Positions 5,141 to 10,067 of a stretch of 64,000 bases of DNA are shown piece after piece; position 1 is the stretch's first letter, and every line of letters begins with the position of its first letter. The position numbers and the translations under genes were made by a program. The stretch spans positions 25,486 to 89,485 of the IMG/VR virus record IMGVR_UViG_3300022699_000224, one strand, 5' to 3'. The DNA is from a virus. Below the pieces are notes generated by a model. That model worked only from the letters and a program-made list of their open reading frames with translations, ran no database searches and was not told the DNA's origin.

Positions 5141-5338
5141 ATGGGTGATGTTATTAGAGCAACTGCAATAAATTATTTAAACTTTTTTAAAAAAGCATAT
5201 AAGAAATATAAAGCAACTGATAAGGATACTCGTATGAAAACCGCTTTAAATAGGATAGAGAAATTTATTAAAAAACAACCTACAATAGAAAATTTTATGC
5301 GAGAAGAAATAAAGAAAATTAAAAATGAAATTAATTAA
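5141..5338 (+). CDS. small helical hypothetical protein
   Basis: 65 residues, lysine-rich helices, no motif. It has a strong Shine-Dalgarno (TAGGAGGTATATTT) and its end overlaps the polymerase start by 14 bases, so polymerase translation, which has only a weak Shine-Dalgarno of its own, is probably coupled to this gene. Confidence 0.6.
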   Translation: MGDVIRATAINYLNFFKKAYKKYKATDKDTRMKTALNRIEKFIKKQPTIENFMREEIKKIKNEIN

Positions 5339-8300
5339 TATACATAGTAATGGAAGAACTATATATTTATTTTGGAGAGATAACGAAAATAAATTACATG
5401 TAAAACGTAAAAAAGATTTTTTTCCTTATTATTATGAAATATCTCCAAATGAAGAAGGGAAATATAAAGGATATGATAATTCTCCATTGAAAAAAATATA
5501 TGTATCTAAACCAAACGAAGTCAGAAAATTAAGAAGCTCTAACGCATATGAGGCAGATATAATATTTACTAAACGATTCTTAATAGATAAAATAGATAAA
5601 ATAGAGCCTTGTCCTATAAAAATTGCTTATATAGATATAGAAGTTAAAGCTCCTGAATTTCCTAATCCTGATAACGCACAATATCCAGTTTCATGTATTA
5701 GCGTCGGTAACTCTTTTAAAAAAGAAATTAAAACTTTTTGGATAAAAAATTTTGATACTGAATTTGATTTAATAGAAACATTTATAAAATATATGAGAAA
5801 AGAAAAGTATGACCTTTTTTGTAGTTGGCATGTAGATTTTGATTATAATTATTTATATAATCGTTATCCTGATTTTGCAAAAAAACTTAGTCCAATAAAT
5901 GAAACTAGATATGGTAACGATAAAGTCTTATATCCTGCTGGAATATCTATTATAGATTATTTAAGCTGGTTTAAAGCATTTACAAGAAATAAATATAGAG
6001 TATATAGTTTAGACGCAGTTGCTCAAAAAGATTTACAAGAAAAAACATGGGGTAATACTGATTTTGATTCTTTAAATGATGAAATTAAAAAAAAGAATAT
6101 TAATGATGTTAAAAGAATGATTAAATTGGAAAATAAATATAATATAGTTTCATTATTTGATGAAATTCGTAGATTTTCTAAAGTAGAATGGGAAGATTTA
6201 GGAACTTATAATTCTAGAGTTATAGATATGTTAGTATTACAAGAAGCAAAAAATCAAAAAATAGTTTTACCTATGAAACCAAGAGATAAGATAAAAGAAG
6301 AATTCGAAGGAGCATATAGAGATACTTATGAAACAGGTAGATTTTTTAATGTAGGCAAATATGATTTAAGCGGTGCTTATATGTATGCTATTATAGATTT
6401 AGCTTTAGATTCTGCTAATATTAAAGAAAATTCTAATAATAATACTATACCTGTTAATATTACAGATAGAAAAACTCATAAAATTTTGAATACGTATAAT
6501 GTAGAACAAAATAAAAACGGTATATTACCATTAGTAGCAAAAAAATTAATTGATGAAAAGAATAAATTAAAAAAAGAACGAGCTTTATTAGACCCTAATT
6601 CAGAAGAATATAAAATATTAGATAAACGATATGATGCTTTAAAGGTTATAGTGCTTAGTTGTTGGGGAGTTATAGGTAATCAGTATTTCAGATTATTTGA
6701 TTCTAGAGTAGCAGGGATGATTACTTCTGTAGTTAGAAGTCTTATTTGGTATGTAGATGATAAATTGAAAGAATTAGGATATAAAGTCTTATATGTTGAT
6801 ACAGATGGGTTAATAATAGATGATAAAGGGGAAACTATTACAGATTTATTAAATGATTTAATAACTAAATGGGCTAAAGAAAAATTTAATAAAAAGGTAT
6901 CTATAAGATTTGATTGTGAAGGACATTTTGAGAAATTATATATTGCTACTAAATGCAGATATAAAGGTTATTTAAAAACAGATACAGGTATTAAAGAAGA
7001 AACTAAAGGATTAGAAATTAAAAGAAAGGACTCAACTAAGTATATACAGAAATTTCAGGATAAATTGATTGATAAAATTTTAAATAAAGAATCAGAAGAA
7101 ATAGTTATTAAATGGATTAATAACAAAATTAATAATTTTAAAAATAATAAATTAACTGATATTGCATTTCCTTGTAAATTATCTAGGAAACCTAATGATT
7201 ATAAAAATATTCCTATATTTTTAAGAGCATTAAATAATACTGAAAATTTTAATAAAAAAGTAGGGGAATTATATTATTATATTTATGTTAAGCCTAATAA
7301 AGAGAGAAAACGTAAAACAATTATAAAAGTAAAAGAAAAAGAAAATATAATATTAAATAAAGATTTATCTAGAAAGGAAGGTATAGTATACGCAAGAAAA
7401 ACTTATGAGAATTCTAATTTGAAAACATCAGATATAAGTGTATTACATAAAAGAGAAAAAGCTAAAGATGTAGTAGCATTTGATAAAGATAACTATGACC
7501 ATATAAATAAAGAAGATATTGATTGGAAAAAAATGATTGATAGAAATATAATGATGAAAATAGATTCTATATTTAAATCTATGAAATGGGATATAAAAAA
7601 ATTAAATTTTGCGGAGGAAGTGTCGAAAGAGACACATCGAAATACCATTTCGAAAAGTAAGGTGCAAGTCCTTAACTCCGCTCCAAAATCTAATAATAAA
7701 AAATATCCTAATGATTATCCAATAGAAAAAGGTAAAACTTTATCTAAAGAAGAATTAAAAAAATTAAATTTAAAGTGTAAACCAAAAATAAAAAATAGAG
7801 ATAAAATAGAAGAATTTTTAAAAATAAATAATAATAAACAAATAAAAGCATTAAAAAATAATTTTAATCCTGAACCTTATATAGAAGAATATAATTTAGA
7901 TTTTCAATGGGTTAGTTTCATTAATACTATTAGTTCTACTATGTTTAAAAATAGACCTGGAAGAAGTATTAAATTATTAGTAAAAGATAAAAATTATGAT
8001 TTTATATATGGAATTATTTCTTTAAGTAGTCCTATGATTAATAAAAAAATTAATAAATACTTTAAAGATAATAATAAAATGCCTAAAGTAGATTTTAATT
8101 TTATAAATAGACATATTATAGATATAAATGTATGTGTAGGAACAGGAATATTAACTAAATATTTAACAGGTAAATTGTTAACATATATTGCATTATCCGA
8201 AGAAATTAAAAATATGTGGGATAAAAAATATAATACTGATATAAAATATATAATGACTACTTCTATTTATGGAAAATCATCTATTTATAATAGAATTAAA

Positions 8301-8624
8301 TCATTTAAATTTTTAGGATTATCTGAAGGTTGGAATGTAACTTTTACTCAAAAACAAATAGATTGGTTAAAAAAAGAACATAAAAAACTATATCCTCATC
8401 ATAAACTTTCAATTTCAGGAAAATCGTCTCATTTGTTCCGTAGATGGAATCAAGTTTGGAGAAAATACCATGATAAAATGCCATTTTTTCCTTATAAATT
8501 AAGAAGAGGAACTTATTTATTTGATATTAATAAAACTCCTTTTTTAAGTATAAAAGATAATATAAAATATTGGAAAAAAAGATGGTATTATCCTAGAAAG
8601 GAAAGATTAAAGAATGAAAAATAA
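5325..8624 (+). CDS. family B DNA polymerase fused in frame to a DUF4338 (DruA-like) domain
   Basis: 1099 residues. Residues 1-760 are a family B replicative polymerase: exonuclease motif I D104-I-E106, exo II near D171/D173, palm motif A DLSGAYMY with D347, a diverged motif B KVIVLSCWG from 440 (usual Asn replaced by Leu, usual Tyr by Trp), motif C YVDTDG with D492 and D494, and CRYKGY near 544. The thumb seems to end at about 758 (KSMKWDIKKL). Residues 763-787 are encoded by a tRNA-shaped sequence. From about 800 to 1099 there is a second domain with LSSPMI, CVGTG, GKLLTYIALS, TTSIYGKSSIYNR and GLSEGW, which I recognise as DUF4338, the DruA family. No ATG begins the second domain before residue 873, so it appears to be expressed only as a fusion. 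Confidence 0.85.
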   Translation: MKLINIHSNGRTIYLFWRDNENKLHVKRKKDFFPYYYEISPNEEGKYKGYDNSPLKKIYVSKPNEVRKLRSSNAYEADIIFTKRFLIDKIDKIEPCPIKIAYIDIEVKAPEFPNPDNAQYPVSCISVGNSFKKEIKTFWIKNFDTEFDLIETFIKYMRKEKYDLFCSWHVDFDYNYLYNRYPDFAKKLSPINETRYGNDKVLYPAGISIIDYLSWFKAFTRNKYRVYSLDAVAQKDLQEKTWGNTDFDSLNDEIKKKNINDVKRMIKLENKYNIVSLFDEIRRFSKVEWEDLGTYNSRVIDMLVLQEAKNQKIVLPMKPRDKIKEEFEGAYRDTYETGRFFNVGKYDLSGAYMYAIIDLALDSANIKENSNNNTIPVNITDRKTHKILNTYNVEQNKNGILPLVAKKLIDEKNKLKKERALLDPNSEEYKILDKRYDALKVIVLSCWGVIGNQYFRLFDSRVAGMITSVVRSLIWYVDDKLKELGYKVLYVDTDGLIIDDKGETITDLLNDLITKWAKEKFNKKVSIRFDCEGHFEKLYIATKCRYKGYLKTDTGIKEETKGLEIKRKDSTKYIQKFQDKLIDKILNKESEEIVIKWINNKINNFKNNKLTDIAFPCKLSRKPNDYKNIPIFLRALNNTENFNKKVGELYYYIYVKPNKERKRKTIIKVKEKENIILNKDLSRKEGIVYARKTYENSNLKTSDISVLHKREKAKDVVAFDKDNYDHINKEDIDWKKMIDRNIMMKIDSIFKSMKWDIKKLNFAEEVSKETHRNTISKSKVQVLNSAPKSNNKKYPNDYPIEKGKTLSKEELKKLNLKCKPKIKNRDKIEEFLKINNNKQIKALKNNFNPEPYIEEYNLDFQWVSFINTISSTMFKNRPGRSIKLLVKDKNYDFIYGIISLSSPMINKKINKYFKDNNKMPKVDFNFINRHIIDINVCVGTGILTKYLTGKLLTYIALSEEIKNMWDKKYNTDIKYIMTTSIYGKSSIYNRIKSFKFLGLSEGWNVTFTQKQIDWLKKEHKKLYPHHKLSISGKSSHLFRRWNQVWRKYHDKMPFFPYKLRRGTYLFDINKTPFLSIKDNIKYWKKRWYYPRKERLKNEK
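7611..7685 (+). tRNA. tRNA-shaped sequence (Gly-like, loop ACC) inside the polymerase ORF
   Basis: 75 nt that fold as a full cloverleaf. The acceptor pairs GCGGAG (7611-7616) with CTCCGC (7676-7681), with a G-A mismatch at the seventh pair, then U and an encoded CCA (7683-7685). The D-arm is GTGTC/GACAC (7620-7635). The anticodon arm is TCGAA/TTCGA with 7-nt loop ATACCAT (7637-7653), giving U33, anticodon ACC and A37. The variable loop is 4 nt and the T-arm TAAGG/CCTTA with loop TGCAAGT (7658-7674). G1-C72, C2-G71, C35, C36 and U73 match bacterial tRNA-Gly identity. Against a working tRNA: no GG in the D-loop, G at position 55, and the rare A34. The frame stays open across it (codons 763-787). 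Confidence 0.45.
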
Positions 8625-8826
8625 ATGTAAGTGTAAAAAACCAGATAGAGTAATAAGTATTCTTAATGGAATAGGTTTTAAATGTGCAAAGTGTAATAAG
8701 TGGATAAAAATATTTCATAAAAAGTTTCATAAACCTACTAAAATAAGAAAATCTAAGAAGAAATATAATAGAAGAAAAGCAAAAAAGAAATTAAGACAAA
8801 AATTAAGAGAGGAGGATATTTCATGA
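8614..8826 (+). CDS. small basic zinc-ribbon protein
   Basis: 70 residues with two Cys pairs in the N-terminal half (CKCKKP at 5-9, CAKC at 24-27) and a lysine/arginine-rich C-terminal tail. It is likely to bind nucleic acid through a zinc ribbon. The start overlaps the polymerase stop by 11 bases and the stop TGA overlaps the next ATG, so it belongs to the polymerase transcript. Confidence 0.6.
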   Translation: MKNKCKCKKPDRVISILNGIGFKCAKCNKWIKIFHKKFHKPTKIRKSKKKYNRRKAKKKLRQKLREEDIS

Positions 8827-8954
8827 TTTATTTGATTATATTAGCAATGTTAATATTAGTTGCTTTTATTGCAGGTATGTTTGTTCAAAGAAATAATTAT
8901 ATTCTAAAACCAAAAAAACCTAAAGATATGCATTATGGTAAAATTAATAACTAG
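8823..8954 (+). CDS. 43-residue single-span membrane peptide
   Basis: A short gene with start ATG overlapping the previous TGA (TCATGA) and preceded by GAGAGGAGGATATTTC, a strong Shine-Dalgarno. Residues 2-20 form one hydrophobic helix (LIILAMLILVAFIAG), followed by a short basic tail. It could be a small membrane modulator, but no family is recognisable. Confidence 0.6.
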   Translation: MIYLIILAMLILVAFIAGMFVQRNNYILKPKKPKDMHYGKINN

Positions 8955-9214: not shown

Positions 9215-9289
9215 GGGGCTTGTGGTTTAATAGCCTGATAACTTACTAGGGATTCCTGGTGAGAAATTGTAGATTAACTACCAAGCCCC
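9215..9289 (+). ncRNA. structured RNA element with a tRNA-like outline
   Basis: An 8-bp closing stem, GGGGCTTG (9215-9222) with CAAGCCCC (9282-9289), encloses a strong hairpin: CTTACTAGG (9242-9250) and CCTGGTGAG (9255-9263) pair over nine positions (seven Watson-Crick or A-U/G-C and two wobble) around the loop GATT. A smaller hairpin, GTAG/CTAC, follows at 9269-9281. The whole is 75 nt, tRNA-sized, but the T-arm, D-arm and CCA are not canonical. It begins 8 bases after one gene and ends 15 bases before the next start, so it may be a leader element controlling the gene at 9305, or a decayed tRNA. Confidence 0.45.
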
Positions 9290-9304: not shown

Positions 9305-9739
9305 ATGAAATTAGAACAGCAAGTATGTAGTTTAGAATTAGCCAAGAAACTTAAAGAGTTAGGAGTTAAGCAAGAGAGTTTGTTTTATTGGCAGAGATAT
9401 ACAGAAAAAAAGACAGGTATTGAAGAATGGGATTTAGCCCTAAGAGGTAAACATACAAGAGATAACGCTTGGAGTTGTTTAACAGGTAATTACCACGATG
9501 GGAGACAATGGATAAGTCATTGGGTAGAAAAAGATGAGGAATACTCCGCCTTCACAGTTGCAGAGCTTGGGGAGATGTTGCCTAAGGGAACTCAATCATA
9601 TCATACTTCGTTTGACTGGTGTTTAACAAATCCTAAATGGGCAACTTCTTATATACAACCAAATTCAACCTTTCTAACATATACCGACACCGAAGCCAAC
9701 GCCAGAGCCAAGATGCTTATATATTTAATTGAGGAATAA
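9305..9739 (+). CDS. conserved phage/prophage hypothetical protein, foreign composition
   Basis: 144 residues beginning KLEQQVCSLELAKKLKELG, a sequence type that I recall from many unrelated phages and prophages, where it has no known function. It is rich in Trp (WQRY, EEWD, AWSC, QWISHW), so probably a compact soluble fold. Codon use is clearly less AT-rich than in the neighbours, with many C- and G-ending codons. Together with the structured DNA on both sides this suggests recent acquisition as a cassette. The start follows CGGAGTAAGAG. Confidence 0.75.
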   Translation: MKLEQQVCSLELAKKLKELGVKQESLFYWQRYTEKKTGIEEWDLALRGKHTRDNAWSCLTGNYHDGRQWISHWVEKDEEYSAFTVAELGEMLPKGTQSYHTSFDWCLTNPKWATSYIQPNSTFLTYTDTEANARAKMLIYLIEE

Positions 9740-10067
9740 AAAAATGACTAACCCCAATTGCCTTATGTGGCGTGGTAGCCTACTGATAGTTTTTTAGTGT
9801 TTAACTTGCAAAAATAACACTACGTTACAATAATTCGTTTCGTGAAATTAATCAACAGAGCAGACCAACTGCCCTATGGCAAAAGGGGTAATGGGGGCTA
9901 GATTGGAAAATCAAAATAAGTTATTAAAAGGTTCTTTCTGGTTGAAAAAATCCACTAAGAATGATATTTAAATTGCCCCAAGCCCTCTGCAACGCTAAAG
10001 AGAGAACAGTCAAGGTAAAAGATACCTAAAAAAGATAAAAAATATTTAAATAAACGATTAATTTATT
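9740..10067 (+). other. 328-bp non-coding stretch with many potential RNA stems
   Basis: No ORF longer than 17 codons. It is richer in G+C than its surroundings and full of complementary segments: a hairpin TAGTGTT/AACACTA (9795-9822), a small hairpin TGCC/GGCA at about 9870-9880, CCCC...TTGCC at about 9752-9762 that can pair with GGCAA..GGGG at about 9878-9888, and GGGGGCT (9893-9899) that can pair with AGCCCTC (9981-9987). The segments compete, so a single fold cannot be chosen by eye. It may be a structured non-coding RNA. No tRNA, group I intron core or promoter could be identified. Confidence 0.35.

Follow-up and report, generated by a model that had tools for sequence, protein, structure and literature searches.

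The fused polymerase gene and its in-frame cloverleaf

The source of the DNA analysed here is an uncultivated bacterial virus. The window, that is, the whole stretch of 64,000 nucleotides, comprises bases 25486–89485 of an 89,485-bp IMG/VR virus record, which is linear and perhaps incomplete. An ORF of 1099 aa (5325–8624) encodes a family B DNA polymerase (Pfam match at residues 359–668) followed by a DUF4338 domain (residues 862–1034; the domain carries the name DruA in Pfam). The initial annotation had noticed a tRNA-shaped sequence in frame between the two domains. Its coordinates, letters and frame were right, 7611–7685 being codons 763–787, and its position was borne out by the Pfam domains and by alignment with standalone DUF4338 proteins (Table 1). 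The 25 RNA-encoded residues form a polar, hydrophilic linker, and the DUF4338 part lacks a separate start codon where one would be expected. The ORF also contains, at residues ~660–715, a lysine-rich polymerase insertion of ~50 residues that is absent from the related virus L020.

Table 1. Features of the fused ORF and its 3' neighbour (window coordinates)
Feature	Position	Strand	Evidence
DNA polymerase (family B) part of the fused ORF, residues 1–762	5325..7610	+	Pfam DNA_pol_B 1e-25
C-terminal end of the polymerase part (residues 1–762), ...FKSMKWDIKKLNF	up to 7610	+	
In-frame tRNA-shaped cloverleaf, codons 763–787, peptide AEEVSKETHRNTISKSKVQVLNSAP	7611..7685	+	
Acceptor 5' strand GCGGAGG; base 7 (G) opposite A	7611..7617	+	fold
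D arm GUGUCGAAAGAGACAC; without in-frame UAA, without GG	7620..7635	+	fold and loop alignment
Anticodon arm; anticodon ACC at 7644–7646; U33, A37	7637..7653	+	
T arm UAAGG UGCAAGU CCUUA; T loop as in related-phage tRNA-Phe	7658..7674	+	
Acceptor 3' strand ACUCCGC, then encoded UCCA	7675..7685	+	
DUF4338 (DruA, predicted GNAT-fold) part; first ~17 residues are linker	7686..8621	+	Pfam DruA 1e-7, alignment with standalone proteins, predicted fold
Putative gained segment (RNA and DUF4338), from polymerase end to small cysteine-rich gene; right edge approximate	7611..8612	+	
Small cysteine-rich (zinc-ribbon-like) gene; start overlaps end of fused ORF	8613..8828	+	

Written as RNA, the element reads GCGGAGG AA GUGUCGAAAGAGACAC A UCGAAAUACCAUUUCGA AAAG UAAGGUGCAAGUCCUUA ACUCCGC UCCA. 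Its minimum-free-energy fold (-26.0 kcal/mol) is a cloverleaf with canonical tRNA arm lengths, which aligns with tRNA-Gly over 75 nt without a gap. Twenty of the 21 pairs are formed, the sole exception being G.A at 7-66; of the four complete arms claimed initially, all are present, but the acceptor has only 6 of 7 pairs. Dinucleotide shuffles of the segment folded at -13.2 +/- 2.8 kcal/mol and none of 200 was as stable (z -4.6). The codon-preserving control that had been named as a check was passed: among synonymous recodings of the same 25 residues with the codon usage of the genome, 0/20,000 were as stable as the cloverleaf (z -6.2), compared with 5/20,000 for recodings with uniform codons and 5/20,000 for permutations of the codon order of 763–787. 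We also scanned the window for tRNA geometry (at least 6 of 7 acceptor pairs, 5/5 anticodon and T pairs, a D arm and CCA, with variable D and V regions allowed). The element was the sole site, and Markov windows of the same composition gave 0.0025 expected sites per window (1/400), a figure to be read with the criteria having been chosen after the site was known. The tRNA-shaped fold at 7611–7685 is not a product of chance.

The composition of the element also sets it apart. Its GC is 0.47 (0.15 in the preceding 75 nt, 0.17 in the following 75 nt) and its GC3 is 0.48 (0.16 and 0.00, respectively). Codon adaptiveness of codons 763–787 (0.241) is the lowest among 2,545 segments of 25 codons (minimum elsewhere 0.316, median 0.768); it is 0.99 just before the RNA and 0.96 just after it, and by part it amounts to 0.99 for the polymerase end, 0.94 for the linker and 0.84 for DUF4338. 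We infer that the stems may still be under selection as RNA, because the element is not AT-rich, unlike the polymerase end, the linker and DUF4338, and because 20/21 pairs are kept while the loops have changed.

When the whole record, window included, was searched for other cloverleaves, 9215–9289 was the only non-coding site to stand out, and it is not tRNA-like (4.7 bits in the tRNA model described below). It is a GC-rich branched structure with an 8-bp outer stem (GGGGCUUG/CAAGCCCC) and three hairpins (~-31 kcal/mol, z -5.2), directly before ORF 9305–9739, and is missing in L020, where gp47 is preceded by a simple hairpin. This ORF (phrog_31971, unknown function; GC 0.375) and the non-coding stretch 9740–10060 are clearly GC-richer, with atypical codons, and 9305–10060 has the look of foreign DNA inserted between two conserved early genes.

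Resemblance to tRNAs

No tRNA was called by ARAGORN at 7611–7685, no Rfam family matched it at the gathering cut-off or at E <= 10, and RF00005 alone, run against the record, gave no match at E <= 10; the element thus falls short of the family and program score cut-offs of a canonical elongator tRNA. We built our own covariance model from ten gapless-aligning tRNAs of 75 nt, taken from E. coli and other phages, leaving the window sequence out. With filters off, the model found 7611–7685 at full length with 37.1 bits (E 4.1e-10 in 4.8 kb; runner-up site 7.0 bits), the E-value being rough owing to a short calibration and the tRNAs having been picked for the same layout as the element. Real tRNAs of the comparison phages scored 16–83 bits with the same model, a range that includes the element. 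With default filters the site was missed. Covariance scoring, proposed as a check in the initial annotation, therefore gave a divided answer, positive with our unfiltered model and negative with RF00005. ARAGORN and Rfam probably miss such elements because their filters reject the changed D and T loops, and more elements of this kind may hide in phage genes, overlooked by standard tRNA finders.

The bacterial glycine identity set comprises U73, G1-C72, C2-G71, G3-C70, C35 and C36 (PMC9976931, Table 1). All six features are present in the element, so the earlier claim of mutually consistent glycine bases held. In a compilation of 92 CCA-encoding tRNAs, the acceptor part of this set occurred in 5/5 tRNA-Gly and in 0/87 others. 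When isotypes were ranked by raw identity without the anticodon, Gly was among the best, with Tyr and Thr equal, and was not singled out. The evidence supports the view that the element is tRNA-type and Gly-like.

The loops have diverged further. The unpaired bases outside the anticodon and CCA carried no tRNA signal above permutation (30% of permutations were equally good), and the D loop scored worse than random as a tRNA D loop. U8, A14, G18 and U55 are absent, replaced by A8, C14, A18 and G55, so that the canonical core and elbow set (U8, A14, G18, G19, U55, C56) is reduced to G19 and C56, for both of which a placement is possible. In the T loop UGCAAGU, G53-C61, U54, C56, A57 (the purine expected there) and A58 are retained, with G at position 55, and the 3' CCA is encoded within UCCA. 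If a 4-bp D stem is assumed, the loop CGAAAGAG can set A18-G19 opposite G55-C56. Among the first 64 tRNAs compiled, G55 occurred in two, a tRNA-Phe (UGCAAGU) and a tRNA-Met (UGCAAAU). They come from phages whose terminase shares 60% identity with that of the virus studied here, and both have A-G in place of the usual G18-G19; in the tRNA-Phe D loop, AGGUAGUA, A18-G19 stands at positions identical to those in the window loop. This shared A18-G19/G55-C56 combination, seen in two comparison sequences, suggests a possible alternative elbow. In four other phage tRNAs (L122/L147, L141, L150) U56 goes with A19 instead of C56 with G19, which indicates that the elbow pair can co-vary. The initial annotation was right that the D-loop GG and U55 are absent; the elbow appears altered, not wholly missing.

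BLAST of the RNA against phages returned only short, chance-level matches, the best being 20 nt of the T arm in tRNA arrays of Felix O1-like and Mooglevirus phages (E 0.6–7). In Felix O1 (L145:569–626) and Citrobacter phage BSwM KMM2 (L146), an unannotated tRNA-like RNA lies between tRNA-Asn and tRNA-Tyr; it lacks an anticodon arm, and its T arm, GUAAGGUGCAAGUCCUUA, is that of the window element.

ARAGORN runs on other DUF4338-bearing T4-like phages revealed 75-nt tRNA-Gly genes with the arm spacing of the element. All tRNAs found at 80 T4-like DUF4338 loci were tRNA-Gly, at four loci that represent few independent events. Every tRNA-Gly inspected in this way (L052, L065, L066/L067 and E. coli glyT) has an in-frame UAA at codon 5, which is absent from the D arm in the window; this UAA is also where, in L052 and L065, the gene upstream ends after running into the tRNA-Gly. 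The same frame is free of stops in 39 of 111 real tRNAs, so about one third of tRNAs are open in frame, and openness by itself does not point to design. In L052, L066 and L067, the tRNA-Gly genes with the unusual anticodon ACC abut or overlap the end of a nucleotidyltransferase-like gene.

Related polymerases and the DUF4338 domain

Related polymerases, 43–54% identical, were retrieved from IMG/VR with an alignment of the window polymerase and one relative. Single-sequence scans of IMG/VR with the polymerase and with DUF4338, an exact pattern search of IMG/VR for the RNA, and a search of genome contigs with the polymerase alignment gave no matches. All nine related polymerases inspected stop 1–26 residues past the MxWDI motif region, which corresponds to the start of the RNA in the window, and none keeps the protein segment 763–787. 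In four of the nine (L020, L107, L112, L113) the polymerase is directly followed by a cysteine-rich gene that overlaps its stop and corresponds to the gene at 8613. A DUF4338 HMM had no match at E <= 1 in 11 related records, some of which are fragments. Since the relatives end at the RNA start and DUF4338 was not found in them, the RNA and DUF4338 (~7611–8612) are most simply read as a probable gain at the polymerase stop codon. Several of the related polymerase genes (L112, L113, L115/L119) are split by inserts of ~0.9–1.2 kb near residues 214, 350, 447 and 570, which are introns or inteins at several places. In L020, an HNH-endonuclease-like sequence is fused in frame to a MazG-type domain (7102–7998), and a free HNH-like ORF (1882–2673) adjoins the polymerase.

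Other T4-like phages carry DUF4338 as a gene of its own, which in several of them comes right after the polymerase with an overlapping start, and a polymerase–DUF4338 fusion was found at 0/80 T4-like DUF4338 loci. Most standalone DUF4338 proteins begin to align ~17 residues past the RNA, which places the RNA in what would be former intergenic space. The suggestion that the RNA is the end marker of an inserted element fits in so far as it lies at the left edge of the segment apparently gained; no target duplication and no second copy were found. The arrangement, an in-frame RNA between polymerase and DUF4338, is known from one metagenomic contig, and our searches returned no homologue with it.

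Published work places DUF4338 among the GCN5-like acetyltransferases (PMC10853773). Our structure model, built from 21 window and locus sequences, is of moderate confidence (pLDDT 64), and its best matches in the PDB were acetyltransferases (best E 1.3e-3); one of the many generic matches was TacT, a toxin that acetylates tRNA. DUF4338 is thus predicted to fold as a GNAT acetyltransferase.

Origin and possible fate of the RNA

The fold and frame of the 75-base stretch suggest that a tRNA gene was captured inside a coding sequence. The explanation we propose, to which we give about an even chance of being right, is that a diverged phage tRNA-Gly-type gene was caught in frame where DUF4338 was gained behind the polymerase, and has since been translated as a linker with its fold retained. 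A gene for the GNAT-fold protein would have been gained right behind the polymerase gene, at the site of a tRNA-Gly-type gene; the stop codon of the polymerase and the start codon of DUF4338 would have been lost, and the D arm lacks the in-frame UAA of an ordinary tRNA-Gly. Together these changes would yield a single ORF consisting of polymerase, 25-residue RNA-encoded linker and GNAT domain. Host RNase P might then cleave a share of the transcripts at 7610/7611; with trimming behind the encoded CCA, these would yield a tRNA-like RNA and be lost as messages, whereas uncut messages would give the fusion protein. We regard this last part as possible and rather doubtful. Cutting would produce a polymerase message that lacks a stop codon and a DUF4338 part that lacks a start, which counts against it; it would therefore be limited to a fraction of the transcripts, or else the RNA would stay uncut, acting in cis or not at all.

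The element could instead be a relic, a tRNA gene that came in together with DUF4338 or was inserted beside it, has no RNA function now and, as a hydrophilic linker, has had little time to decay. The polar character of the 25 residues, the open ORF, the frequency of stop-free frames among real tRNAs and the occurrence of the arrangement in one genome only all agree with this. Neutral decay, however, should affect stems and loops equally, whereas several core loop bases have changed and nearly all pairs are intact; moreover, the flanks, including DUF4338, are already AT-adapted, so a young age of the segment would fit only if the RNA arrived later. We consider a relic somewhat unlikely. Less probable still is a structured mRNA element of other than tRNA descent, a stable junction at the boundary between the domains that acts as a brake on ribosomes, as a barrier to nucleases or as the determinant of the polymerase to polymerase–DUF4338 ratio. 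A strong fold exactly at that boundary, loops and a D arm that are not tRNA-like, and the second branched, non-tRNA-like RNA of the genome at 9215–9289 speak for it, but the exact arm lengths, the CCA, the glycine set and the T loop of a phage tRNA-Phe would then all be coincidence.

Two further readings have hardly any probability. One is a self-cleaving ribozyme, an intron remnant or a translational bypass element. The hairpin GGUGCAAGUCC resembles a hairpin of the twister-sister ribozyme, and related polymerase genes carry inserts at other places; a real tRNA of a related phage, however, has the same hairpin as its T arm, 75 nt is below the size of a group I or II intron, and 25 codons in frame make a bypass needless. 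The twister-sister and bypass ideas were dropped, as no Rfam family matched at E <= 10 and the frame is intact. The other is an assembly artefact or a chance fold in an ordinary coding stretch. The sequence does come from a single metagenomic contig, but the downstream cysteine-rich, gp47 and gp46 genes are ordered as in relatives, so that a chimera would need two joints, and with gene order so conserved misassembly was judged unlikely. Chance is excluded by the synonymous recodings and the geometry scan.

An extension of the proposed capture would make the 75 bases dual-coding, both the linker of a polymerase–GNAT fusion and a released tRNA-Gly mimic that DUF4338 binds or acylates, by analogy with GNAT toxins such as TacT, which acts on Gly-tRNA; the specificity of TacT is determined by U73 and G71 of tRNA-Gly (PMC9976931). 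We consider this very improbable, and that the GNAT domain and the RNA are functionally linked is only a speculation.

Phage tRNA genes are common and are positioned between genes or overlap the end of a gene. We came across no report, in the open-access literature, of a complete tRNA cloverleaf preserved in frame midway through a polymerase ORF. Should the RNA be released, the polymerase fusion and the tRNA-type RNA would be alternative products of a single message, and their competition could be measured directly.

Among known systems, RNase P can cleave mRNAs, including T4 gene 32 and polycistronic operon mRNAs (PMC11143913), which like the window hold a tRNA-like structure within the message; the window element differs from them in being a full cloverleaf with CCA inside an ORF, and its cleavage is hypothetical. 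RNA1–3 of phage T5, stable RNAs of unknown function in the tRNA region, are likewise tRNA-related without a canonical gene call, but are intergenic. The same holds for the Felix O1-like RNA, which shares an 18-nt T arm with the element but has no anticodon arm and whose match has a chance-level E-value. The tRNA-Phe and tRNA-Met with G55 T loops and A-G for G18-G19, found in phages L004/L005, are otherwise canonical and lie within an intergenic tRNA array. The tRNA-Gly genes of L052, L065, L066 and L067 differ from the window element in their normal D and T loops, in the UAA in frame without readthrough, and in lying downstream of DUF4338 instead of before it. Like the element, they lie at the 3' end of a protein gene and have arms of 7/2/16/1/17/4/17/7/UCCA, the acceptor GCGG...CCGC and U73, and three of the four (L052, L066, L067) share its anticodon ACC.
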